From Lachnospiraceae bacterium (GTDB taxonomy: Bacteria; Bacillota; Clostridia; Lachnospirales; Lachnospiraceae), in contig CAJTEY010000019.1 of the NCBI GenBank assembly GCA_910575775.1, positions 1 to 64,000 of the forward strand: 64,000 bases of DNA, given 5' to 3'. The translations under genes were made by a program, and so were the position numbers. The notes under the pieces were generated by a model. The model did not search any database. It saw only the letters and a list, made by a program, of their open reading frames with translations, and was not told the DNA's origin. Positions 8,554 through 64,000 of this stretch are shown one piece after another (within the stretch, counting starts at the first letter, position 1; every line of letters begins with the position of its first letter).

Positions 8554-8635
8554 GGGAAGATGATAAGCATTGGATGAAGTATGATAAGAACACATGAAAA
8601 GTGCCAAAAGATTAGAAAAGAGAGGAGTGGTAAAT

Positions 8636-10060
8636 TTGGAACAGAAAAACACATGGGAAACTTATGATGAGAAACAGCTAGGGGAAGTGGACGCTTTTGC
8701 CAGAGAGTATATGGACTTTCTGGACAGAGGAAAGACCGAGCGGGAGTGCATCGACCAGATCGTAAATACGCTGGATGAGGCGGGATATCAGGAACTGGAG
8801 GCGCTGGTGAAGGACGGCAAAAAGCTGAAAGCCGGGGACAAGGTGTATTCCGTATGGATGAATAAATCCATTGTGATGTTTCAGATCGGCAAGGAGAAGA
8901 TGGAGGACGGCATCAATATTCTCGGGGCGCACATCGACTCTCCCCGTCTGGACGTGAAACAGAATCCTCTCTATGAGGACGGCGGTTTCGCCTATCTGGA
9001 CACCCATTATTACGGCGGCGTGAAAAAGTACCAGTGGGTGACGATTCCCCTTTCCATTCACGGCGTGGTTGTGAAGAAGGACGGCAGCACCGTGGAGGTC
9101 AACGTGGGCGAGAACGAGGACGATCCCGTTTTCTTCGTGTCCGACCTTTTGATCCATCTTGCGAGCGAGCAGCTTGAGAAAAAGGCAAACAAGGTGATTG
9201 AGGGCGAGGCGTTGGATATCATCATTGGCAATAAGCCTCTTGTGATCGATAAGAAGAAAAAGAAGGATGACGAGGAGGACAGCGCGCCGAAGGACGCTGT
9301 GAAGAAGGGAATCCTTGAAATTTTAAAGAGAGATTACGATTTTGAGGAGGAGGACTTTATCTCCGCCGAGCTTGAAGTGGTGCCCGCCGGGAAGGCGAGG
9401 GAGGCAGGTTTTGACCGCAGCATGATTCTTTCCTACGGACAGGATGACCGCGTGTGCGCGTTCTCTTCCCTGAAAGCGATGCTGGAGATCGGGCAGACCG
9501 AAAGAACGGCATGCTGTATTCTTGTGGATAAAGAGGAGATCGGCAGCGTAGGCGCGACCGGTATGCAGTCCAAATTCTTTGAGAACGCGGTGGCGGAGGT
9601 GATGAACCTTCTCGGTGAGTACAGTGAGCTTGGCCTGCGCAGATGCCTTGCACGCTCCTGTATGCTTTCCTCCGACGTGAGCAGCGCATATGATCCGGCA
9701 TATGCGTCCAGCTTTGACAAGAAGAACGTGGCTTACCTTGGCGGCGGCATGGTGTTTAACAAGTTTACGGGCAGGGGCGGCAAGTCCGGCTCCAACGATG
9801 CCAACGCGGAGTATCTCGGTCACATCCGTGCGATCTTTGAGAAGGAGAAGGTGAATTTCCAGACAGCGGAGCTTGGCAAGGTGGATCTTGGCGGCGGCGG
9901 CACGATCGCCTATATCCTTGCGCTCTACGGCATGAACGTGATCGACAGCGGCGTGGCGGTATTAAACATGCACGCGCCCTGGGAGGCAACAAGTAAGGCG
10001 GACGTGTACGAGACGAAGCGCGGGTATGTGGCTTTTCTGGAAAATGCATGCCTATATTAA
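8636..10060 (+). CDS. apeB: M18-family aminopeptidase
   Basis: The protein is 474 residues from a TTG start at 8636, chosen because AGAGGAG lies eight bases upstream; an upstream ATG at 8594 has no good site. M18 metal and active-site signatures are visible: GAHIDSPRLD near residue 100, the DKEEIGSVGATGMQS block with the catalytic Glu pair near 300, and NMHAPWEATSKADVYETKRGY near the end. These enzymes are cytosolic, form dodecamers, and release N-terminal, often acidic, residues from peptides. A Lys-rich stretch near 205-222 is a variable loop. A dispersed hairpin element begins directly after the stop codon. Confidence 0.93.
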   Translation: MEQKNTWETYDEKQLGEVDAFAREYMDFLDRGKTERECIDQIVNTLDEAGYQELEALVKDGKKLKAGDKVYSVWMNKSIVMFQIGKEKMEDGINILGAHIDSPRLDVKQNPLYEDGGFAYLDTHYYGGVKKYQWVTIPLSIHGVVVKKDGSTVEVNVGENEDDPVFFVSDLLIHLASEQLEKKANKVIEGEALDIIIGNKPLVIDKKKKKDDEEDSAPKDAVKKGILEILKRDYDFEEEDFISAELEVVPAGKAREAGFDRSMILSYGQDDRVCAFSSLKAMLEIGQTERTACCILVDKEEIGSVGATGMQSKFFENAVAEVMNLLGEYSELGLRRCLARSCMLSSDVSSAYDPAYASSFDKKNVAYLGGGMVFNKFTGRGGKSGSNDANAEYLGHIRAIFEKEKVNFQTAELGKVDLGGGGTIAYILALYGMNVIDSGVAVLNMHAPWEATSKADVYETKRGYVAFLENACLY

Positions 10061-10198
10061 CGTGAGAAGTACTTCTAACCACTCACAGCAGAGGCTGTTT
10101 CGTGGAGAAGCACTAAGTCTCACGCAGGAGAATGCCTGAAAAGCGGCATTCTCCGCACCGATTTGAGATTCCGTGAAGAGGAATCAAGGTGGTTAGAG
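10061..10198 (+). repeat. Dispersed hairpin element, copy A
   Basis: The element starts right after the apeB stop codon. Hairpin 1 (10061-10124) has outer CGTGAG/CTCACG, middle AGTACTTCT/AGAAGCACT, CCAC/GTGG and an ACAGC/GCTGT tip. Hairpin 2 (10127-10154) is a perfect 10-bp stem, GGAGAATGCC/GGCATTCTCC. Hairpin 3 (10167-10185) is GATTCC/GGAATC. The tail GGTGGTTAGAGTGG could also pair with TCTAACCAC in hairpin 1. Copy B at 63536 matches across hairpins 1 and 2 with compensatory changes. Copy C at 46551 shares hairpin 2 and the tail. The function is unknown. Confidence 0.85.
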
Positions 10199-10395
10199 TG
10201 GAAAGCTGACTTGGTCAGTCAAAGATGTGTATGTGTAATGAAGTATGTAAGGATGGGAGCGCATGGCAGAGTGAGAGCTTTTGCGCTCTTTTCTCAAGTA
10301 TAAATGATCGCAGAGGAGAATCAGAGTATTCCGTTGGAAAACTTATGGATTCTCTTCGCGTTCATCACTAGAAAATGCCTCGGAATGGAGACGAA
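10199..10395 (+). other. Intergenic stretch with weak hairpins, no gene seen
   Basis: No convincing ORF is present. AGAGC/GCTCT near 10274-10290 is followed by TTTTCT and may be a weak terminator. GAGAATC and GATTCTC (about 10316-10356) form a longer inverted repeat that resembles hairpin 2 of the upstream element and may be a decayed part of it. GGAG at 10387-10390 is the queA ribosome-binding site. Confidence 0.5.
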
Positions 10396-11430
10396 ATGTC
10401 AGAATTAAAAAAATCGGATTTTTACTTTGATTTACCGCAGGAACTGATTGCCCAGGATCCTTTGGAGGATCGCTCCGCGTCCAGACTCCTTGTGCTGAAC
10501 CGAAAGACGGGAGCGGTGGAACATCATACGTTTAGGGAAATCACGAATTATGTAAGATCGGGAGACTGTCTGGTTTTAAATAATACCAAGGTCATTCCGG
10601 CAAGGCTGATGGGCGTGAAGGAGGATACGGGTGCGGCAATCGAGGTGCTGCTGTTAAAGCGGCGGGACAACGACGTTTGGGAAACCCTCGTAAAGCCCGG
10701 GAAAAAGGCGAGACCCGGCGCAAAGATTGTCTTTGGGGACGGGTGTCTGCGGGCGGAAGTGCTGGACGTGGAGGAGGAGGGCAACCGCCTGATCCGCTTT
10801 GACTATGAGGGGATTTTTGAGGAGGTGCTTGACCGTCTTGGGGAAATGCCGCTGCCGCCTTATATTACCCATAAATTGCAGGACAAAAACCGCTACCAGA
10901 CCGTGTACGCGAAATATGAGGGCTCTGCAGCGGCGCCAACGGCGGGGCTTCACTTTACCGAAGAATTACTTGCGCAGATAGAGGAAATGGGCGTAAATAT
11001 TGCCTATGTGACCCTCCATGTGGGGCTGGGCACCTTCCGTCCCGTGAAAGCGGACAACATTTTGGAGCACCATATGCATTCCGAGCATTATGAGGTGACG
11101 CCCGAGACGGCGGAGCTGATCAACCGCACGAAGGAGAGCGGCGGGCGCGTGATCTGCGTGGGGACGACAAGCTGCCGCACGGTGGAGAGTGCGGCGGACG
11201 AAAACGGTCGGGTGCAGCCGGGGTGCGGAGATACGGAGATCTTTATTTACCCGGGGTATCGGTTTAAGGTGCTGGACTGCCTGATCACGAATTTTCATCT
11301 GCCGGAATCCACGCTGGTAATGCTTGTTTCTGCGCTTGCGGGCAGAGAGAACGTGCTGGCGGCGTACCGGGAGGCGGTGGAGGAGAGGTATCGGTTTTTC
11401 TCTTTTGGGGATGCGATGCTTGTGATTTAA
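10396..11430 (+). CDS. queA: tRNA preQ1(34) S-adenosylmethionine ribosyltransferase-isomerase
   Basis: The protein is 344 residues from ATG 10396, preferred over ATG 10375 because GGAG lies five bases before it and QueA proteins start near this Leu-Lys-Asp/Ser-Phe segment. It transfers and isomerises the ribosyl moiety of SAM onto preQ1-modified tRNA to make epoxyqueuosine. Characteristic blocks are [16 protein letters not shown] ([16 protein letters not shown]), [13 protein letters not shown], the APTAGLHFT block near residue 180, and [14 protein letters not shown]. The C-terminal [16 protein letters not shown] is also typical. It stands alone rather than next to tgt. The 3' region overlaps no other gene. 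Confidence 0.97.
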
Positions 11431-11534
11431 TATTATTTTGCTTTTCAAAGAGAACTGGAAGATATTTGGGTTAGAATTAACCGAAATATCTTCTGGTGCG
11501 TTTCGCTGGAATGATAAGAACGAAGGAGTAACCT

Positions 11535-13331
11535 GTGAGAATGAAATACAGAAGAGGGATTTTGCTCGGCTTTTTTCTGGTTCTGCTCTATACGGTCGGT
11601 CTCTATTCGGAGTCCGAGTTGGAAGACAGGATGGAAACGGCTGCAGATGCGGTATCGGAGACAAATACGGGAAAAAGTTATGTCAGCGTGGCGGGACATG
11701 AGATTGCACTGTGGCAGCAAGGCGGTCAGTTCTACGCCTTTCTTCCTTCCGCCTGCAGGGAGATGGACTTGCAGCCGGAAATACCGAAGGAGACCGCTCC
11801 CGATTCTATCGTGTGGATGTATTCGGAAAATATTCCAGCCGTTTTTATTGATACAAAGTCCGGGAGCGCGGAACAAATTCATGCGGATAAAAACGTAAAG
11901 GAAGCAGGGGAAATTTCCGTTTTGGAAGCGGACGGTAGCATCAGCCTCCGTATGCCGCTTGCCTATATCAAGAGTAGGGGCAACACTTCTTTTACTTCTT
12001 TTGAAAAAAAGCCTTATCAGATTAAATTGACGGATGCAGTATCGCTTTTGGGTATGGATGCCGCGAAAAAATGGATTTTCATTTCCAATGCGCCGGACAC
12101 GACGCTTCTTAGGAACGCGCTTTCCAGAAAGCTTGCAGGGCAGCTTGACTTGGCGCGGTCGAATGACGGTGTCTTTGTGGATCTGTATTTAAATGGGGAA
12201 TACGCAGGAAACTATTATGTCACGGAAAAGGTGGAAGTGCATAAAAACCGTCTTCCGATAACGGACATGGAGAAGATGACGGAACTTACGAACAACAACG
12301 AAGAGTTCAACGTCTATGAGACTGCGTGGACGGATACGACAAAGGCAAAAGATGTGCCGAAAGACCCTGTGGATATCACAGGCGGTTATTTAATTGAGCG
12401 GGATTTTGGGGAGCGGTTTCTTTCCGAAGTCGAGATTAACGGCAGCTATTTTATAACTGAGGCGGAAGAATCGTTCATTGTTCGTTCACCAGAATATGCT
12501 TCGGAGAATCAGATTGCCTATATTAACAGCTATATTCAAAGTGTGGAAAACGCTATTTTGTCACATGACGGCATCGATCATGAGAGCGGAAAGTCCTATC
12601 AGGATTTGATTGACGTGGATTCTTTTGCGCGAAAATATCTTTTGGAGGAAGTGACGGCTAATTATGACGGCGGCGTGGCAAGTTCCTATTTTTACAAGGA
12701 CAGGGATGCCGTCAGTGAAAAACTGTTTGCGGGACCGATATGGGATTATGACGTCACGTGGGGAAATACCCCGGCTTACATCGGATACCTTTCGAATTCG
12801 CCCAAGCGGCTGACAAGGCTGGATTTTCATCAGGACTCGTCCGTATGGTTTCCCGCCTTATATGAAAAACCGGAATTTTATCAAGCGGTTATTTCCTGCT
12901 ACCGGAGAGATATCAGTCCCTATTTGGAGACGATGGCTTTGCAGACGCTTCCGCAGCTTGTAGAGATGACCGCCGCGTCCGCGGCTATGGACAGGGTTCG
13001 GTGGTCGGCACAGTATGCGGAGAACAGTACATGGGAGAGCCGTGAAGAGGAGGTCGCTTTTTTGGCGGACTATATTTTAGAACGCAAAGCGTTTCTGGAC
13101 AAGGCATGGATAGAGCAGACTGCGATACATGAAATTGAGTTATTCATCGAAGATGCGCCTTATGATACGCTGTATGTTTTTTCGGGAGAGAAGATGCCGA
13201 AAATGCCGGATGCGGAAATATCTTATGCGGAGTTTCTGGGATGGACTTCAGAAAAGGATGGTCAGCCGCCCGATTTGCATATTCCTGTTTATGAAGATAT
13301 GGTTTTCCACGCAGTGTTACAATATCCCTGA
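11535..13331 (+). CDS. CotH-kinase family secreted protein
   Basis: The protein is 598 residues from GTG 11535, with GGAG six bases upstream. It starts with a signal peptide or anchor (residues 6-22). CotH motifs are present: SRGNTSFTSFEKKPYQIKL near 150, WIFISNAPDTTLLRNAL near 180, LNGEYAGNYYVTEKVEV near 220, GGYLIERDF near 290 and GPIWDYDVTWGN near 405. CotH proteins are atypical kinases that phosphorylate spore coat proteins in Bacillus. Related proteins in Clostridia are secreted and often tied to the cell surface or cellulosomes. The C-terminus (about 540-598) looks like a small Listeria-Bacteroides-type repeat (FLGWTSEKDG). The target is unknown. Confidence 0.88.
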   Translation: MRMKYRRGILLGFFLVLLYTVGLYSESELEDRMETAADAVSETNTGKSYVSVAGHEIALWQQGGQFYAFLPSACREMDLQPEIPKETAPDSIVWMYSENIPAVFIDTKSGSAEQIHADKNVKEAGEISVLEADGSISLRMPLAYIKSRGNTSFTSFEKKPYQIKLTDAVSLLGMDAAKKWIFISNAPDTTLLRNALSRKLAGQLDLARSNDGVFVDLYLNGEYAGNYYVTEKVEVHKNRLPITDMEKMTELTNNNEEFNVYETAWTDTTKAKDVPKDPVDITGGYLIERDFGERFLSEVEINGSYFITEAEESFIVRSPEYASENQIAYINSYIQSVENAILSHDGIDHESGKSYQDLIDVDSFARKYLLEEVTANYDGGVASSYFYKDRDAVSEKLFAGPIWDYDVTWGNTPAYIGYLSNSPKRLTRLDFHQDSSVWFPALYEKPEFYQAVISCYRRDISPYLETMALQTLPQLVEMTAASAAMDRVRWSAQYAENSTWESREEEVAFLADYILERKAFLDKAWIEQTAIHEIELFIEDAPYDTLYVFSGEKMPKMPDAEISYAEFLGWTSEKDGQPPDLHIPVYEDMVFHAVLQYP

Positions 13332-13344
13332 GCGGCTTCTTGTG

Positions 13345-13785
13345 TTATGATTCCTTCGCGGTGTCCAATACGGCAAATCCGTGGTCGAGAAGCATTTCGT
13401 TGGCATCCATGATGGTCATATGATTCATCAGGGCGAACAGAATCAGCGCGTCCCGCCCATCTCTGGCATACAATTCCCGATTGCCGGAAAGCTTCAGCAT
13501 TTTTTGTGTTTCCTCCTCGGACAGTCTCAGCCCGAAAGAAAGGGCGATCAGCTTGTCACGGGAGGGAATTTTATCGCCCGCAAAAATCCGATAGACATAG
13601 GCGCGCCCAAGCAGAGAACCCCGGATCACGTCCGCACGCCGGAGGTTCTTTTGCGCCAGCAGCATCTGCAGATGATCTGCCAGACTTTCTTTCAGCATAT
13701 GTGTTCTGTTTTTCTCCAGATAGTCTTCCATATCCGTTGCGGTTCTGATTTCATGCCGCAGTTCATCCGTTGACTTTTCATCCAT
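13345..13785 (-). CDS. Small helix-turn-helix (XRE-like) regulator
   Basis: The protein is 146 residues. The centre (about 36-95) reads as an XRE-type helix-turn-helix (LQMLLAQKNLRRADVIRGS, then AYVYRIFAGDKIPSRDKLIAL). A C-terminal helical segment follows (EETQKMLKLSGNRELYARDGRDALI). Proteins of this build occur beside Ser/Thr kinases in Clostridia, and here a kinase gene lies 1.3 kb away. It is divergent from the acyltransferase gene. It has its own strong promoter, and a perfect 17-bp palindrome sits in the shared promoter region. The inference is that it binds that palindrome. Convergent to the CotH gene with only 13 bases between them. Confidence 0.8.
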   Translation of the reverse strand: MDEKSTDELRHEIRTATDMEDYLEKNRTHMLKESLADHLQMLLAQKNLRRADVIRGSLLGRAYVYRIFAGDKIPSRDKLIALSFGLRLSEEETQKMLKLSGNRELYARDGRDALILFALMNHMTIMDANEMLLDHGFAVLDTAKES

Positions 13786-13825
13786 TCTGCATCGAAGTCC
13801 TTCCTGTGTATTTCCTGTAAATCTT

Positions 13826-13854
13826 ATTATATCTGTTTATGGTAAGCGTGACAA
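13826..13854 (-). promoter_or_regulatory. Sigma-A promoter of the HTH regulator
   Basis: On the minus strand TTGTCA (13854-13849) and TATAAT (13831-13826) are 17 bases apart, close to consensus. The predicted start lies about 35 bases upstream of the regulator's ATG. Confidence 0.85.
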
Positions 13855-13867
13855 CTGTGGAGGAAAT

Positions 13868-13884
13868 GTCTACCGTCGGTAGAC
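13868..13884. promoter_or_regulatory. Perfect palindrome, probable operator
   Basis: GTCTACCG-T-CGGTAGAC is a perfect 8+1+8 inverted repeat. It lies upstream of the divergent regulator promoter and overlaps the -35 region of the acyltransferase promoter (TATAAT at 13906-13911). It is the right size for a dimeric HTH protein. The neighbouring XRE-like protein is the obvious candidate, by inference. Confidence 0.7.
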
Positions 13885-13905
13885 CAAAATCGACAAAATT
13901 TTCCC

Positions 13906-13911
13906 TATAAT
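13906..13911 (+). promoter_or_regulatory. -10 element of the acyltransferase gene
   Basis: A consensus TATAAT lies 24 bases before the start codon. The -35 is poor (a TAGACC-like hexamer at the edge of the palindrome). This suggests that expression depends on, or is blocked by, a protein at the palindrome. Confidence 0.6.
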
Positions 13912-13934
13912 ACCATCATGGGAGAGGGAAAAGC

Positions 13935-15038
13935 ATGAAATACACAGAGATATCTTTATCCGGGAAGGGAAAAGAGAAGCGCGTATATTACGAATGGATA
14001 CGTCTGACTGCCTGTTTTTTTGTTATATTTAATCACCTGAAAGGCTATGTGCTGTTTCAGAACGCGTCCGGCGCAAAGCAGTTGTTTTACATGGTTCTTT
14101 CTGTGATTACCAAAATCAATGTGCCGCTGTTTTTCATGGTTTCCGGCGCGCTGCTCTTGGGAAAGCGAGAGGATATTTTCACGGTTTTAAAAAAGCGGGT
14201 CAGCAGGATTTGTCTGGTTATCCTGCTTTTTTCTCTGGGCATTTACACGGAGTGCCGGTTGTACGCGCTCGCGCAGGGCAGGGACTACGAATTTACGGTG
14301 AAGCGTTTCCTTTACGGGGTATTTGAAAGGAGTCTGGATGAGACGGGCGCCTACTGGTATCTCTATGCCTATCTTGGTTTCCTTTTATTATTGCCTCTGA
14401 TGCAGAAAATAGCGGGACAGATGAGCCGGAGCGATTTTTACACGCTGTTTGCACTGCATTTTATAATCTGGTCGATGTTTCCCATCTGCAATCTTTTCCT
14501 ACGTCTGGCAGGGTGCGAAAGTCTTTCTCTGGCGGGGGAATTTTCTGTGCCGCTCGCCACGACGGCGGCGTTTTTCTATCCCCTTACAGGCTATTATATC
14601 GACCGTAAAATAGAGATACGGGCGGTCTCCAAAAGAAAATGGGCTGGGCTTTGTGCGGCGGCTGCTGTGGCAATCTGCCTGTCCTGTCTTTGTGTGTATT
14701 TGGATGGGGCGGCGGATGAGACCTTTATTTCCCTGTTCGACTATGTGCTCGCCATCGCGGTATTTCTGGCTGTCAAATATACGACGGCTGTCAAAATACC
14801 GGCATTGTCATCCGGAAAAACGGCGGAGGCGGTCTGTTTTATGGGTTCGCTCACCTTCGGCATTTATCTGTTGGACCACTATTTTAAATTGGTTTTGTAT
14901 GAGAATTACGAAGCCTTTGCAGAGCGGTTTATGCCGTCCCTTTTCGCCTCCTTCGGCTGGTGCGCGGTCAGTATGTTTTTGGGAGGAACTGTGACGTGGC
15001 TGTTAAAAAAGTTGCCGTTGTTTAAAAATATATTATGA
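13935..15038 (+). CDS. Acyltransferase-3 family membrane protein
   Basis: The protein is 367 residues with about ten hydrophobic helices. The N-terminus has the family pattern YYEWIRLTACFFVIFNHL, with the Arg and His thought to be catalytic in acyltransferase-3 proteins, then PLFFMVSGALLLGK. The fold matches OafA/WecH-type enzymes that O-acetylate surface polysaccharides or lipids. The substrate cannot be inferred. The start follows GAGAGGGAAAAGC. It is divergent from the HTH regulator and is followed by the kinase gene, which has its own promoter. Confidence 0.85.
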   Translation: MKYTEISLSGKGKEKRVYYEWIRLTACFFVIFNHLKGYVLFQNASGAKQLFYMVLSVITKINVPLFFMVSGALLLGKREDIFTVLKKRVSRICLVILLFSLGIYTECRLYALAQGRDYEFTVKRFLYGVFERSLDETGAYWYLYAYLGFLLLLPLMQKIAGQMSRSDFYTLFALHFIIWSMFPICNLFLRLAGCESLSLAGEFSVPLATTAAFFYPLTGYYIDRKIEIRAVSKRKWAGLCAAAAVAICLSCLCVYLDGAADETFISLFDYVLAIAVFLAVKYTTAVKIPALSSGKTAEAVCFMGSLTFGIYLLDHYFKLVLYENYEAFAERFMPSLFASFGWCAVSMFLGGTVTWLLKKLPLFKNIL

Positions 15039-33742: not shown

Positions 33743-33973
33743 CTAGTTGTTGCAGCAGCAGGATAAGAGGATCAGAATCCAGATCCAGGAACAGCAGTTG
33801 TTGTCGCCGCCAAAGAGGCTGTTGCCGCCGAAAAAGCCGCCGCCACAACCGCAGCTGTCGCCATTGTTACCACAGCAGGATAAGAGGATCAGAATCCAGA
33901 TCCAGGAACCACATCCGTTGTTAGTAGCGCAGGTATTGTTGCATCCACAGTGAGTTGCTGTAAGATCACTCAT
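33743..33973 (-). CDS. Cys-rich small protein with duplicated WIWILILL hydrophobic motif
   Basis: The protein is 76 residues. It has two copies of SWIWILILLSCC (about 23-34 and 62-73), each preceded by an Asn/Cys-rich turn, and a Gly/Cys linker (CGCGGGFFGG) between them. At the DNA level the copies share a perfect 37-bp repeat 117 bases apart, so the duplication is recent. TTTGGAGGGCAC precedes the start. The upstream minus strand has CATAAGATA at 34013-34005, fitting a sigma-K -10 (CATAnnnTA), with a CACC-like -35 at near spacing. Small Cys/Gly-rich proteins of this style are often spore coat or membrane-associated proteins. The function is unknown. Confidence 0.75.
   Translation of the reverse strand: MSDLTATHCGCNNTCATNNGCGSWIWILILLSCCGNNGDSCGCGGGFFGGNSLFGGDNNCCSWIWILILLSCCCNN
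33756..33909. repeat. 37-bp perfect direct repeat inside the Cys-rich gene
   Basis: The same 37 bases occur at 33756-33792 and 33873-33909, starting CAGCAGGATAAGAGGATCAG. The offset is 117 bases, or 39 codons, so the reading frame is preserved. Both copies encode the SWIWILILLSCC segment. Confidence 0.95.
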
Positions 33974-44223: not shown

Positions 44224-46551
44224 ATGGAAGAACGTGTGGAGCTTCTTGCTCCTGCGGGAAACTATGAGGCATTTATGGGCGCGGTAAACGCCGGGGCTGA
44301 TGCGGTATATTTGGGCGGACCACAGTTTGGCGCCCGGGCTTACGCGGATAATTTCACGACAGAGGAGATTGTCCGTGCGCTTCACGTCGCCCATTTTTAT
44401 GGGAAAAAGATATATCTGACGGTAAACACGCTTTTGAAGGAGCGTGAGATGGCATCCCTGGGTGCGTATCTGTCGCCCTTCTACGAGGCGGGGCTGGACG
44501 GTGTGATCGTGCAGGATTTCGGTGTTTTCTATTATATCAGGGAATATTTTCCGGGACTGCCCCTGCATGTGAGCACCCAGATGACCGTGACGGGGGTGGG
44601 AGGCGCATCGCTTTTAAGGAACCAGGGGGCGGCCCGCATCGTTCCGGCCAGAGAGCTTTCCCTGGAAGAAGTGAGAAAAATCCGGGAGGAAGCGGACGTG
44701 GAAGTGGAATGTTTTATCCACGGCGCCATGTGCTATTCCTATTCGGGACAGTGCCTGTTCAGCAGCATTTTGGGCGGCAGGAGCGGAAACCGGGGACGGT
44801 GCGCCCAGCCATGCCGGCTGCCCTATGAGATTTACGACGGAAAAAGGAGGCTTTCCGGGAGCGGCTATCCTTTAAGCCTGAAAGATATGTGCACGTTGGA
44901 ATATCTGCCTGCGCTCTTGGAGGCGGGAATCGATTCCTTTAAGATCGAAGGGCGGATGAAGCGGCCTGAGTACGCAGCGGGCGTGACGGCGGTATACCGC
45001 AAGTATATCGATCTCTATTACAGGGAGGGTGCGGCCGGTTACCGGGTGGAGCGGGAAGACATGGACAGGCTCCGCCGGCTCTATATCCGCAGCGAAATTC
45101 AGACAGGCTACTATGAGCGGCATAACGGAAAAGAGATGATTACGCTGGAAAAGCCCGGTTATGAGGGGGGCGACGAGACACTGCTTTCGGAAATACGGGA
45201 AACGTATATCAGAGAGCCGGAGAAAATGCCGGTGCGTCTGCAGGCATCGGTGAAAGTGGGGGAACCCCTGCGCCTGCACGTTGGAGCGGTGGCAGGCCTA
45301 CATGATGATGCAGGAAAAAGTCCGGCAAAGGCAGCGCGTCTTGCGGTTGAGGTGACAGGCGAGACTGTCCAGCACGCGAAAAATGCGCCTCTTTCCGAGG
45401 AGGAAATCAGAAAGCGTCTCTGTAAGACCGGGGACAGTTTGCTGACGGTGGAACACTGTGAGATTTCCCTGGAGGGAGCGTGCTTTGTTCCCGTCCGGGC
45501 ATTAAATGAACTGCGGCGGTCGGCAGTGGCAGCCTTTGAAGCGTTGACGGCAGAGAGCTGCGGGACAGCCTTTGAGAAAGAGTCTGATGGGGAGAAAGAA
45601 AACGACCGACCAAGTCAGTCTATCAAGGGTGGCGTACATCTGTGGGCTGCGGCAGAACGGGAAGGGGAAAAAAGGCCGGCTTTGAAAAAGGCAGAGCAGG
45701 CGCAGGCGATCCATGTGACAGTGAGCACTTTCGATCAGCTTCAGGCAATTCTCAAATGGGGCGGCTGCAGGCGGATTTACATAGAGAGCGATCTGTTTTC
45801 GGATGCCTGTGAGGAGATCACACGGCTTTTGGGAGAATCCGGGCAGCGGCCGGATGAGGGGGAAATGCCGGATATATATGTGGCGCTTCCCTATATTCTG
45901 CGGGAGAGGGACAAGGCTTATCTGCGTCGGCTTTTGGAGGCGCTGGAACGGGCGGGCGCTTTTGTGAAAGGGTTTTTGATCCGCAGTCTGGAAGGACTGT
46001 CCTGGGCAGAGAAGTTTTCAGAAGATCGGGAGAATGGCACGACGGCTTACAGGATGGTGCCGGATGCGGGACTCTACTGCCTGAATGCGGAGGCGCTGCG
46101 GTTTTTTGCGGATTTTTCGACGGAGATTACATTGCCTTATGAGGGGAATGCGGGGGAGGCGGCCCATCTTGTGCGGGCAGCCAGAGAGCGGGGCATGCGC
46201 ACAAGTCTGATCGCTTACAGCCGGATTCCCATGATGATTACGGCCAACTGTCTGTATAAGACGGCGGAGGGGTGCCGCGCGGAAGCGGGAGGAAAGGGAC
46301 GGCTTTTGCTGAAAGACCGTATGGGCCGGTCATTTCCTGTGGAGATAAATTGCGATCACTGCTATAATATCATATATAACTGCGTGCCCTATTCCCTGCA
46401 CGGAGCGAAAAAGGAGCGGGAGAGAATCGCTGCGGATGCTCTGCGCTATGATTTTACGACAGAGGAAGGGGCGCAGTGCGTCAAGATTTTGGAGGGAGAG
46501 TTACCCTTTTCCGAGCACACCACAGGACATTGTAAGAGAGGCGTTGAATAA
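44224..46551 (+). CDS. U32-family peptidase/RlhA-like protein
   Basis: The protein is 775 residues from ATG 44224. An open frame from 44083 lies within zapA and the terminator. It begins ERVELLAPAGNYEAFMGAV, typical of U32 proteins, and has the core block HGAMCYSYSGQCLFSS near 165-180, then RGRCAQPCR. The Cys residues are thought to hold an Fe-S cluster in the RlhA relatives that modify 23S rRNA. The family was named for collagenase-like activity, but many members act in RNA modification. The C-terminal 400 residues include a DUF3656-like region. The choice between peptidase and RNA-modifying enzyme is open. A short hairpin element starts at the stop codon. Confidence 0.85.
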   Translation: MEERVELLAPAGNYEAFMGAVNAGADAVYLGGPQFGARAYADNFTTEEIVRALHVAHFYGKKIYLTVNTLLKEREMASLGAYLSPFYEAGLDGVIVQDFGVFYYIREYFPGLPLHVSTQMTVTGVGGASLLRNQGAARIVPARELSLEEVRKIREEADVEVECFIHGAMCYSYSGQCLFSSILGGRSGNRGRCAQPCRLPYEIYDGKRRLSGSGYPLSLKDMCTLEYLPALLEAGIDSFKIEGRMKRPEYAAGVTAVYRKYIDLYYREGAAGYRVEREDMDRLRRLYIRSEIQTGYYERHNGKEMITLEKPGYEGGDETLLSEIRETYIREPEKMPVRLQASVKVGEPLRLHVGAVAGLHDDAGKSPAKAARLAVEVTGETVQHAKNAPLSEEEIRKRLCKTGDSLLTVEHCEISLEGACFVPVRALNELRRSAVAAFEALTAESCGTAFEKESDGEKENDRPSQSIKGGVHLWAAAEREGEKRPALKKAEQAQAIHVTVSTFDQLQAILKWGGCRRIYIESDLFSDACEEITRLLGESGQRPDEGEMPDIYVALPYILRERDKAYLRRLLEALERAGAFVKGFLIRSLEGLSWAEKFSEDRENGTTAYRMVPDAGLYCLNAEALRFFADFSTEITLPYEGNAGEAAHLVRAARERGMRTSLIAYSRIPMMITANCLYKTAEGCRAEAGGKGRLLLKDRMGRSFPVEINCDHCYNIIYNCVPYSLHGAKKERERIAADALRYDFTTEEGAQCVKILEGELPFSEHTTGHCKRGVE

Positions 46552-46633
46552 TGTAGGAAGCGCGAAATATCTTACATGGGAGAATGCGTGAAAAGCAGGA
46601 TTCTCTGTGCTGCATGGAATCGGGATGGTTAGT
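46551..46633 (+). repeat. Dispersed hairpin element, reduced copy C
   Basis: The copy starts at the U32 stop codon. ATGTAGGA (46551-46558) pairs with TCTTACAT (46570-46577), a shortened hairpin 1. GAGAAT (46580-46585) and ATTCTC (46600-46605) around GTGAAAAGCA equal hairpin 2. Then GGAATCGGGATGGTTAGTATGG matches the H3/tail part of copy A. Its last base immediately precedes the chosen ATG of the FtsW-like gene. Confidence 0.65.
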
Positions 46634-58486: not shown

Positions 58487-58535
58487 CGGTAAACTCATAT
58501 TTGATAGCTTATGAAAACGGAAAATGAGGATAACT

Positions 58536-60898: not shown

Positions 60899-63540
60899 CA
60901 CCTATGATGCAGCAGTACCTGGATACGAAGAAGGAGTATCAGGACTGCATCTTATTTTACAGACTAGGGGATTTTTACGAGATGTTCTTTGAGGACGCTC
61001 TGACGGCGTCCAAGGAACTGGAGATTACACTGACGGGGAAAAGCTGCGGGCAGGAGGAGCGCGCTCCCATGTGCGGCGTTCCTTACCACGCGGTGGAGAG
61101 CTACTTGAATAAGCTTGTTTCCAAGGGTTATAAAGTGGCGATCTGTGAACAGGTGGAAGATCCGAAAAGTGCAAGGGGGATTGTAAAGAGGGAGGTCATC
61201 CGGGTGGTCACGCCGGGGACGAATCTGAATATCCAGGCTCTCGATGACAGCAAGAACAACTATCTGCTCTGTGTCACTTATTTTCCAGGCAAGATCGGAC
61301 TGTCGGTGGCGGATGTGACCACCGGGGATTACTATCTGACAGAAGTGGAGGATATACGCAAACTTCAGGACGAGATCAACAAATACGCGCCTTCGGAGGT
61401 AATCTGCAACGAGCAGTTTTTTGTGAGCGGATTCGATATTGAGGAATTAAAAAGCCGGCTGAACGTGCCTGTCTATTCGCTGTCTCCCCACTATTTTGAT
61501 GAGGAGGGCTGCAAAAAGATATTGACGCGTCATTTCCGGGTAAATACGCTGAAAGGACTCGGAATTGATGACTTTCCTGTGGGAATGATTGCGGCCGGGG
61601 CGTTGCTTTTGTACCTCTATGAGACGCAGAAAACGTCTCTTTCCCATTTTACTCATCTTTATCCTTATCTGAGCAGCAAATACATGCTTTTGGACAGCTC
61701 TACGAGGAGAAATCTGGAATTGATCGAGACGCTGCGGGAGAAACAGAAAAAGGGGTCTCTTCTTGGCGTGCTTGACCGCACGAAAACGGCGCTCGGCGGA
61801 CGGCTTTTGCGCAAATACATAGAGCAGCCCCTGATTGACAGGGGGAGGATCGAAAAACGGCTGGACGCAGTGGAGGAACTATGCCGGCGGAGCGTAGACA
61901 GAGAGGAACTTCGGGAATATCTGCATGCGATCTACGATCTGGAGCGGCTTCTTGGCAAGGTGAGCTATAAGACCGCCAATCCCAGGGATCTGATTGCGCT
62001 ACGCAATTCTCTGGCGATGCTGCCTTCCCTGCGGACGGTGCTTGCCGATTTCGAGGCGCCCCTTCTCCGGGAAATTCTGGAGAACATGGATCCGATGCAG
62101 GATATTCACAAACTGATCGACGATGCAGTCACCGAGGAGCCGCCCATTGCCATCAAGGAGGGCGGCATTATCAAGGAGGGATTCAACGAGACGATAGATT
62201 CCCTGAAAAAGGCAAAGACGGACGGGAAAAAGTGGCTGGCGGCGCTGGAGGAGGAAGACCGGGAGCGCACAGGCATCAGAAATCTGCGGATCAAGTACAA
62301 CAAGGTCTTCGGTTACTACTTTGAGGTGACCAACTCCTACCGGGATCAGGTGCCGGAGGATTATGTGCGCAAACAGACGCTGGCCAATGCGGAGCGGTAT
62401 ACCACGCCCAGGTTAAAGGAGCTGGAGGACTCCATCCTGAATGCGGAGGATAAGCTTTTTACATTGGAATATGACCTGTTCTGTGAGATCCGGGAGGCCA
62501 TTGCCGGGGAGGTGGAGCGGATCCAGAAAACGGCCCGGGCGGTGGCAAAGCTGGATGTGTTTACTTCTCTGTCTTTTGTGGCGGAACAGAATCATTATGT
62601 GCGGCCTTCCCTGAACGAGAAAGGGATGATTGATATTAAGGAGGGGCGGCACCCGGTGGTTGAGCAGATGATCCAGAACGACATGTTCATTGCAAACGAT
62701 ACCCGTCTGGATGACAAAAAGCACTGCATCGCGGTGATTACAGGCCCCAATATGGCGGGAAAATCTACCTATATGCGGCAGGTGGCGCTGATTGTGCTGA
62801 TGACCCAGATCGGCTCCTTTGTGCCTGCTAAAAGAGCGGATATCGGTATTGTAGATCGGATATTCACGAGAGTGGGCGCCTCCGATGATCTGGCCAGCGG
62901 CCAGTCCACTTTCATGGTGGAGATGAACGAGGTGGCTAATATTTTGAGAAACGCCACGCCGAACAGCCTGCTGGTGCTTGACGAGATCGGGCGGGGCACA
63001 TCCACTTTTGATGGTTTGAGCATTGCCTGGGCGGTCATCGAACATATCAGCAACCGTAGGATTCTCGGGGCTAAAACGCTGTTTGCCACCCATTACCACG
63101 AGCTGACCGAGCTGGAAGGCAAGATGGACAATGTAAACAATTACTGCATCGCGGTCAAGGAGAAAGGGGACGACATCGTATTCCTCAGAAAGATCGTGAA
63201 AGGCGGGGCGGACAAAAGCTATGGCATCCAGGTGGCGAAGCTGGCCGGGGTGCCGGATATGGTGATTGACCGGGCCAAGGAGATTGTGGAGCAGTTAAGC
63301 GACAATGACATCACCGAGAAGGTGCAGAACATAGAGATTGACAGAGGCAGGAGCGAGAAGAAAAAAAGCGTCAGGTACGACGAGGTGGATCTGGAGCAGA
63401 TTTCCCTGTTTGACACGGTAACGGATGAGGATGTGATACAGGAGCTGAAAGAGATTGATGTGAGCAACCTGACTCCGGTGGATGCGCTGAATACATTATA
63501 CAGATTACAAAACCGATTGAAAAATCGGTGGGGAACGTGA
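60886..63540 (+). CDS. mutS: DNA mismatch repair protein MutS
   Basis: The protein is 884 residues. The N-terminal mismatch-binding domain has GDFYEMFFED (the Phe-X-Glu motif). The connector, lever and clamp domains follow, then the ATPase with Walker A GPNMAGKSTYMRQ near 625 and LVLDEIGRGTSTFDG near 700. The C-terminus carries a HTH-like helical tail. It recognises mismatches with MutL. It starts inside the last codons of miaB. The stop codon overlaps the first bases of hairpin element copy B, and mutL follows. Confidence 0.98.
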   Translation: MAELTPMMQQYLDTKKEYQDCILFYRLGDFYEMFFEDALTASKELEITLTGKSCGQEERAPMCGVPYHAVESYLNKLVSKGYKVAICEQVEDPKSARGIVKREVIRVVTPGTNLNIQALDDSKNNYLLCVTYFPGKIGLSVADVTTGDYYLTEVEDIRKLQDEINKYAPSEVICNEQFFVSGFDIEELKSRLNVPVYSLSPHYFDEEGCKKILTRHFRVNTLKGLGIDDFPVGMIAAGALLLYLYETQKTSLSHFTHLYPYLSSKYMLLDSSTRRNLELIETLREKQKKGSLLGVLDRTKTALGGRLLRKYIEQPLIDRGRIEKRLDAVEELCRRSVDREELREYLHAIYDLERLLGKVSYKTANPRDLIALRNSLAMLPSLRTVLADFEAPLLREILENMDPMQDIHKLIDDAVTEEPPIAIKEGGIIKEGFNETIDSLKKAKTDGKKWLAALEEEDRERTGIRNLRIKYNKVFGYYFEVTNSYRDQVPEDYVRKQTLANAERYTTPRLKELEDSILNAEDKLFTLEYDLFCEIREAIAGEVERIQKTARAVAKLDVFTSLSFVAEQNHYVRPSLNEKGMIDIKEGRHPVVEQMIQNDMFIANDTRLDDKKHCIAVITGPNMAGKSTYMRQVALIVLMTQIGSFVPAKRADIGIVDRIFTRVGASDDLASGQSTFMVEMNEVANILRNATPNSLLVLDEIGRGTSTFDGLSIAWAVIEHISNRRILGAKTLFATHYHELTELEGKMDNVNNYCIAVKEKGDDIVFLRKIVKGGADKSYGIQVAKLAGVPDMVIDRAKEIVEQLSDNDITEKVQNIEIDRGRSEKKKSVRYDEVDLEQISLFDTVTDEDVIQELKEIDVSNLTPVDALNTLYRLQNRLKNRWGT

Positions 63541-63627
63541 GAAGAACTTCTAACGCTCACAGCATAGGCTGTTTCGCGAAGAAGTTCTAAGTCTCACGTC
63601 AGAGAATGCTTGAAAAACAGCATTCTC
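63536..63627 (+). repeat. Dispersed hairpin element, copy B
   Basis: The copy begins in the mutS stop codon. Hairpin 1 (63536-63598): CGTGAGA/TCTCACG, AGAACTTCT/AGAAGTTCT (perfect), CGC/GCG and ACAGC/GCTGT. Hairpin 2 (63602-63627): GAGAATGCT/AGCATTCTC. Compared with copy A, paired changes keep the helices: T-A to A-T in the middle stem, CCAC/GTGG to CGC/GCG, and GCC/GGC to GCT/AGC. The H3/tail part of copy A is missing. Confidence 0.9.
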
Positions 63628-63649
63628 CGAGCGGCCTAGAGGAGGAAAA

Positions 63650-64000
63650 GTGGCGAAGATAAACATACTCGACAACCAGACGATAGACAAGATCGCCGCC
63701 GGGGAGGTGGTGGAGCGGCCTGCCAGCGTGGTGAAGGAGTTGGTGGAGAATGCCATAGATGCGGGCGCCGACGCTGTTACGGTGGAGATTAAGGAGGGCG
63801 GCACGACCCTGATCCGGGTGACGGACAACGGCGGCGGCATCGAGAAATCCCAGGTGGAAAATGCCTTTCTGCGTCATGCCACAAGTAAGATTTCTTCCGC
63901 TGATGATTTGACCAAGCTGGTCAGTCTGGGATTCCGGGGTGAGGCTCTTGCCAGCATTGCGGCGGTGGCGCAGGTGGAGCTCATTACCAAGACGCCGGAG
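63650..64000 (+). CDS. mutL: DNA mismatch repair protein MutL (5' part)
   Basis: The first 117 residues are visible from GTG 63650, with GAGGAGG upstream. The frame continues past the window end. GHKL ATPase motifs are clear: [32 protein letters not shown] and [14 protein letters not shown]. It couples MutS recognition to strand removal and, in Firmicutes, carries a nicking endonuclease in the unseen C-terminus. It is translated after the copy B hairpins, so its expression relative to mutS may be reduced. Confidence 0.97.

Follow-up and report, generated by a model that had tools for sequence, protein, structure and literature searches.

A probable new family of BOX/REP-like interspersed palindromic repeats at gene ends in Lachnospiraceae

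Here we describe a dispersed structured repeat found in a 64,000-nucleotide stretch of Lachnospiraceae bacterium contig CAJTEY010000019.1, hereafter the window. Copy A lies between two genes, and copy B between two others, which we take to be apeB and queA, and mutS and mutL, respectively, names that come from a sequence-only reading of the window or follow from the translations. A reduced copy is also present, and its matching region in genome G034 holds a full copy (Table 1). The sequence-only reading had placed the element at 10061-10198, and the start, flush with the apeB stop codon, is exact. The end is a near match, as the full unit closes at 10196 with GGTTAG when judged by a head-to-tail array in genome G003, which makes copy A a full unit (10061-10196). 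Copy B consists of the core only, without hairpin 3 and the right end, and mutS is closed by the copy's own TGA (63538-63540). The two copies have a common fold shape, with shuffle z-scores of -4.75 (10058-10210) and -4.32 (63530-63690). Their 85% identity is borne out over 74 ungapped bases rather than the approximately 95 proposed, and the paired differences that had been listed can be read in the letters of both copies: T-A becomes A-T in P2, CCAC/GTGG becomes CGC/GCG in P3 and GCC/GGC becomes GCT/AGC in hairpin 2. An A-C mismatch in P2 of copy A had been missed. Elsewhere in the window, a hairpin-like stretch, GAGAGCTTTTGCGCTCTTTTC, occurs at 10273-10293 between copy A and queA; it is kept in G034 and nearly so in G003, which has no element there. 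Positions 33747-33921 hold two 58-nt direct repeats of 86% identity with a spacing of 117 bases.

Table 1. Positions of the repeat copies and their parts in the window
Feature	Position	Strand	Remarks
apeB stop codon TAA	10058..10060	+	flush with element; TAG in relative G034
Copy A, conserved core (domain 1 and hairpin 2)	10061..10158	+	covariance model match, 112.6 bits
P1 5' arm, copy A	10061..10067	+	partner 10118-10124
P2 5' arm, copy A	10068..10076	+	partner 10106-10114; one A-C mismatch
P3 5' arm CCAC, copy A	10079..10082	+	partner GTGG, 10102-10105
P4 5' arm, copy A	10085..10089	+	partner 10094-10098
Hairpin 2, copy A	10127..10154	+	arms GGAGAATGCC / GGCATTCTCC
Hairpin 3 (GATTCC / GGAATC)	10167..10185	+	longer copies only
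Right end, copy A, GGTGGTTAG	10188..10196	+	
AGTGGAAAG	10197..10205	+	like left end YGTGARAAG, which follows the right end in the G003 array
Copy B, core only, mutS-mutL interval	63536..63632	+	covariance model match
Reduced copy	46531..46610	+	covariance model search; weak score, 27 bits

The dispersed structured element is real, and the initial description understated it. A blastn search of the genome that carries the window (4.88 Mb in 176 contigs) gave 40 scored matches, and a covariance model built from 28 aligned copies of this genome gave 115 matches at E≤1 and 99 at E≤1e-3. Later counts of own copies use the best 99 of these 115 (E≤6.8e-4), of which a few are fragments of one locus and 28 had built the model. 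Genome G034 holds 98 copies at E≤1e-6. At E≤1e-3 with stricter filters, the model detected the element in 31 of 37 genomes of the genus, our own included, and in none of 24 genomes from other families of the order; in a wider sample of the family it was present in 29 of 397 genomes and 25 of 334 genera. An exact-pattern scan of GTDB genomes returned at least 115 stretches, and the titles among the 80 matches listed were Lachnospiraceae, Roseburia, Lachnoclostridium, Parablautia muri, Acetatifactor or unspecific (Bacillota, “bacterium”). Copy A had no blastn match in phage and plasmid records, and the exact element pattern had none in IMG/VR. No Rfam family reached its gathering score anywhere in the window; at five loci searched at E≤5 there were seven chance-level matches, all far under gathering, and an sR39 match overlapping one copy scored 19.4 bits against the 50 required. 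The sequence-only reading had suggested such a model search of this genome and other Lachnospiraceae, and had named as damaging a result of only these copies without covariation, or one placing them in a known RNA or IS family. Instead, the search yielded 99 matches with covarying stems, and no Rfam family was reached. We found no description of this repeat in the open-access literature, and the repeat, an abundant class in a common gut family, is apparently undescribed in print.

The unit opens with domain 1, in which P1 and P2 form a single long stem and P3 and P4 an apical arm, followed by hairpin 2; some copies carry an extra hairpin within the 3' arm, before hairpin 2. The left flank is rich in TAR/CAR, often TAACAR or AATAG (consensus KAAYAR in 89 of the 99 own copies, selected for G then T/C at positions 2-3), after which YGYGARAAG begins the long stem. 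Longer copies continue beyond hairpin 2 with a linker, GATTTGAG, hairpin 3 and a right end near GNGGTTAG, the full unit measuring ∼135-160 bp (145 bp in the G003 array). The right end is often followed by a second YGTGARAAG, although part of the longer copies surveyed were drawn by a pattern that contains the right-end motif; own copies show right-end variants such as GCGATTAG, GCGGCTGG and GCGGTTAA. An extra left-end-like stretch lies just upstream in 9 of the 99 own copies. Loops of hairpin 2 are, in one orientation, rich in A (T outnumbers A in none of 183), which could reflect a strand-specific role as RNA or single-stranded DNA. Long-range pairing between the P3 arm and the right end showed no covariation in 41 copies, whose right ends were picked by a pattern containing the motif (4.85 of 8 matched; shuffled, 5.01). 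Typing of the apical arm was set aside, with 32 of 99 copies unclassified. Related units at L375 and L385 of G034 keep the linkers GATTTGAG and/or CATGGNGG(TTAG) with quite different hairpins, suggesting a larger modular superfamily.

Tested on the 28 aligned copies, the structure surpasses every one of 500 shuffles in four of the five measures used; in the remaining one, further pair types, 179 of 500 shuffles reach it. The initial reading ascribed the paired differences to selection for secondary structure rather than drift; the pairing stands, while the appeal to selection needs qualification, since either selection on function or a templated double mutation in a hairpin could keep the arms paired. 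G-U pairs are tolerated in an RNA stem and A-C pairs are not, so constraint at the RNA level should favour G-U, as should an alignment fitted to a model. In 77 distinct own copies, P1 and P2 together contain 1179 Watson-Crick cells, 19 G-U, 12 A-C and 12 other, and the G-U and A-C counts are 26 vs 31 in P3, 3 vs 24 in P4 and 15 vs 31 in hairpin 2. No helix in these copies has a significant excess of G-U over A-C (the cells are not independent), and A-C is in excess in P4 and hairpin 2. A further alignment, A4, gives 5 vs 2, 14 vs 24, 10 vs 12 and 10 vs 12 for P1+P2, P3, P4 and hairpin 2, its P1 and P2 letters being partly forced because many rows came from the exact-pattern scan; our conclusions on pairing rest on alignment A3 and not on A4.

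In P1, the two columns of a pair have 0.87-1.0 of their information in common although they lie more than 100 columns apart, against 0.07-0.09 for columns of the same arm 2 to 5 apart (shuffled, 0.05). Averaged over the 14 variable pairs, the value is 0.69 for partners against 0.12 within 5' arms, with three weak partner pairs at 0.17-0.36, the value of 0.17 belonging to a pair in P3 and to another in hairpin 2. Pairs 1, 3, 6 and 10 show every combination of their main states, although pairs 10 and 12 are not mutually free, and near-independence holds for P1 and largely P2 only, as neighbours in the apical arm share up to 0.96. The near-exclusive Watson-Crick pairing without a G-U excess, together with the near-independence of neighbouring pairs, points to maintenance of a palindrome at the DNA level, and the G-U tolerance expected of a structured RNA under transcript selection was not seen. 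Covariation alone is thus no proof of RNA. With ∼100 natural copies per genome and near-independent pairs in the long stem, the family also offers a test bed for distinguishing selection from a single templated event.

Such templated events could in principle be the whole explanation, with the copies being old, immobile selfish repeats without present function whose paired changes arise only from hairpin-templated (quasipalindrome) mutation. On the nature of the element this account overlaps with our best explanation, given below; the two part over whether it is active today and over the reason that pairs are preserved. Quasipalindrome template-switch correction is described for RNA genes, at least in the accessible text of the source, and predicts simultaneous changes in two arms without G-U intermediates (PMC8794818). 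The element shares the simultaneous arm changes, and its near-independent two-state pairs with few intermediates, its truncated remnants and a few side hairpins in which a loop and its reverse complement occur on the same stem (TTC/GAA, TTT/AAA) all favour such an origin. So do orthologous copies (37 pairs), which differ by 74 paired Watson-Crick changes and 21 paired others, beside single changes of which 22 lead to G-U, 28 to A-C and 67 to other states; paired columns were taken here from the fold of the copy in our genome (G000), and some pairs may be replacements rather than descent. However, the loop inversion associated with template switching (PMC8794818, as far as its accessible text goes) is essentially absent, with 0 of 183 hairpin 2 loops inverted and a single inverted-looking central arm in 355 occurrences (not deduplicated). 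Furthermore, some pairs are nearly invariant and others mainly two-state, which looks like sequence recognition. We regard this account as unlikely, if deserving of serious weight.

The copies occupy a characteristic position. By crude ORF calls, both neighbours run in the direction of the element in 73 of the 99 own copies. Convergent frames flank 9 copies and divergent frames 8; 5 have both neighbours opposite (2 of which also have an antisense frame over the element) and 4 belong to other classes. In 85 of the 99, a sense frame of 100 codons or more terminates within -75 to +60 of the element start, and 66 of these 85 do so at exactly four offsets, -3, 0, +5 and +18; in G034, where 75 of the 98 copies were examined, the corresponding figure is 44 of 58. 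Most copies are sense-oriented and the stop codon is often supplied by the element itself; repeats of this kind help to set where proteins end. In copies whose flank lies inside the reading frame (stop at +5 or +18), YAR is still found at -3 to -1 in 14 of 24 copies against a background of 4.6%, and in the +5 class TAA/TAG stands there in 8 of 16 against 1.2%; the figures for read-through flanks in G034 are 8 of 16 and 5 of 13. The flank motif is therefore more than a stop codon and forms part of the element or of its target. An antisense frame lies near the right end of 41 of 99 own and 35 of 75 G034 copies, numbers that shadow frames in coding DNA have probably inflated and that we set aside.

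A position behind stop codons is also what would be expected of a cis-acting intercistronic RNA family, in which post-stop hairpins would shield the mRNA upstream, direct its processing or adjust coupling to the next gene, and would be kept by transcript selection. The predominance of co-directional neighbours fits this idea, as only three own copies have both neighbours opposite and no antisense frame over the element, and so do the strong folds, the covariation and the conserved A-rich loop of hairpin 2. Against it stand the lack of a significant G-U excess and the A-C excess in P4 and hairpin 2, antisense copies such as C13:49052 in our genome and another in G003, and addresses that vary by species, where one address may carry different alleles. 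We therefore doubt it, while a role of the element in mRNA is possible. Hairpins after stop codons also recall an intrinsic terminator or attenuator, but most copies lie between co-directional genes, and around copy A (9900-10500) there is no terminator-like site on the + strand and one on the - strand, where 0.6 are expected; this explanation is hardly tenable. Among the options offered by the sequence-only reading, a mobile palindromic element fits best, and the RNA options lack support for want of a significant G-U excess over A-C.

Comparison between species shows that addresses turn over. Among the corresponding loci of 30 genomes, the element follows apeB only in G000 and G034 and precedes mutL only in G000 and G003. 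Within the 64-kb syntenic region, the site at window position 58495 is empty in G000 and G025 and filled in G034 and G063. A further address holds an antisense copy in G003 and a sense copy in G025. From species to species, addresses are filled, empty, truncated or occupied by different alleles, and the end of one gene, presumably atpA, reads FK* in G025 and FTV* in G000, where the element's TGA ends the frame. Since 37 of the 99 own copies share an address with one of the 75 examined G034 copies (one further row is a fragment), many copies must be old. Of these 37 addresses, 19 have an element that is less similar than either flank, with a gap exceeding 8 points at 10 of the 19, and 12 have one that is more similar than either; one of the 37, outside the 19, was judged on one flank. 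At C5:109495, for example, the element is 67% identical and its flanks 82 and 86%, and the two copies, which occupy the same point, differ in the paired letters of P1 and P2; at C17:3922 the values are 60% and 97-98%, the loss stemming partly from a missing hairpin 2. Such low identity would follow if another copy had replaced the original or if the element had inserted anew at that point. For 15 addresses in three relatives (30 rows, those of 44 matches given as loci), the covariance model recognises the element in 5 rows, at full length in 4. Inspected by eye, the remaining 25 include several with left-end remnants or footprints (e.g. C15:10820 in G034 and G025), the others showing nothing recognisable.

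Small, non-coding, dispersed and palindromic, the element might be taken for a DDE-transposon MITE, for which terminal inverted repeats and a target duplication would be expected. However, by eye the ends of the full unit are not inverted repeats of one another, and what comes after the right end, in several copies as well as in the G003 array, matches the left end directly rather than in inverted form. Inspection of the compared sites by eye also revealed no clean target-site duplication; empty sites there are diverged or resemble deletion footprints. We consider a DDE origin very improbable.

Other differences between genomes were also noted. Upstream of mutL, G034, G063 and G002 (L167, L166 and L171) carry a different insert, with CGCAGACGCGCTTTCGCTC or close to it plus GGGTCTGCTTATG, which looks like a second repeat family of the genus. 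Window positions 8602-14275 are 98.7% identical to L224 of G034 over 5.7 kb, with neighbouring blocks at 86-96%, suggesting that this block may have been exchanged recently between species by recombination.

Two known classes of repeat offer the closest parallels. BOX repeats of Streptococcus pneumoniae and S. suis are, in the accessible text of PMC3049150, small dispersed composite modular repeats with predicted stem-loops; 58 CDSs overlap a BOX, and 36 of these obtain their 3'-end stop codon from the repeat. Our element is likewise dispersed, modular and hairpin-forming and often supplies a stop codon, with an optional side hairpin and a variable right end, and the low present mobility of BOX (PMC3049150, same portion) is a further likeness. 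In contrast, a table heading in that paper has BOX repeats overrepresented between convergent genes, whereas our element lies mostly between co-directional ones, and BOX ends are there likened to ISSpn2, whereas no IS was found here. The comparison is with the description of the boxA/boxB(n)/boxC repeats, and we do not file the element as a BOX member.

GTAG REPs, palindromes associated with RAYT transposases (PMC3733652; PMC2817692, both in their accessible parts), resemble the element in lying mostly downstream of genes, in often providing the stop (a TAG, through their tag) and in forming subfamilies with alternative complementary stem bases (accessible text of PMC3733652). Their unpaired TAG-type tag at one end may have a counterpart in the KAAYAR left flank or the right end near GNGGTTAG of our element, which are not GTAG as such. 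On the other hand, GTAG REPs measure 20-40 bp, and GT stem pairs, frequent in them according to the same text, are rare in our element. The word Firmicutes does not occur in the text of PMC3733652. A Y1 gene flanked by the repeat, as in REP/RAYT systems, was not found among 20 Y1 loci, and many copy-rich draft genomes are without Y1. The element is accordingly not filed as a REP member and is treated as a new family of the BOX/REP kind.

On balance, these copies are probably BOX/REP-like non-autonomous interspersed palindromic repeats that form a new family in Lachnospiraceae. Their spread, past or present, would take place at the DNA level, the likeliest route being a trans-acting enzyme that recognises single-strand hairpins. 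The element would settle at gene ends because its left end carries TAA/TAG, with a TGA five bases in, so that an insertion there would close the frame harmlessly, as the positions of the copies suggest. A settled copy may then persist, shrink by deletions or be swapped for another allele. The stems stay Watson-Crick paired because both arms change together, which might come about through recognition of the palindrome or through hairpin-templated repair. A more speculative extension, which we rate as improbable, treats base pairs as units of inheritance: self-templated copying, in the course of replication or movement, would rewrite both letters at once, and a dedicated single-strand DNA machinery of Lachnospiraceae would exchange alleles at fixed gene-end addresses.

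No mover was found. The candidate considered, the Y1 transposase (PF01797), fits poorly: it is missing from 8 of 15 genomes of the genus having at least 10 copies, G034 included, and from 7 of 13 copy-bearing genomes in another set (11 of the 13 from other genera), an absence that is not absolute because the genomes are drafts. Flanks of up to ∼1.5 kb at 20 Y1 loci gave no element match (E≤0.1), Y1 and element copies correlate with a Spearman coefficient of 0.27 (p 0.10; 37 genomes, copy counts of 68 meaning at least 68), and G023, with 16 Y1 transposase matches and 20 element copies, gives no sign of linkage. Right ends lying far from a core were also examined as a sign of an autonomous element, over 190 bases upstream in 20 loci, and proved to be right ends, variants of the right module and some chance matches. 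By eye, the genes around two tandem arrays form housekeeping operons, and an ORF at the edge of L298 is presumably serine-recombinase-like.
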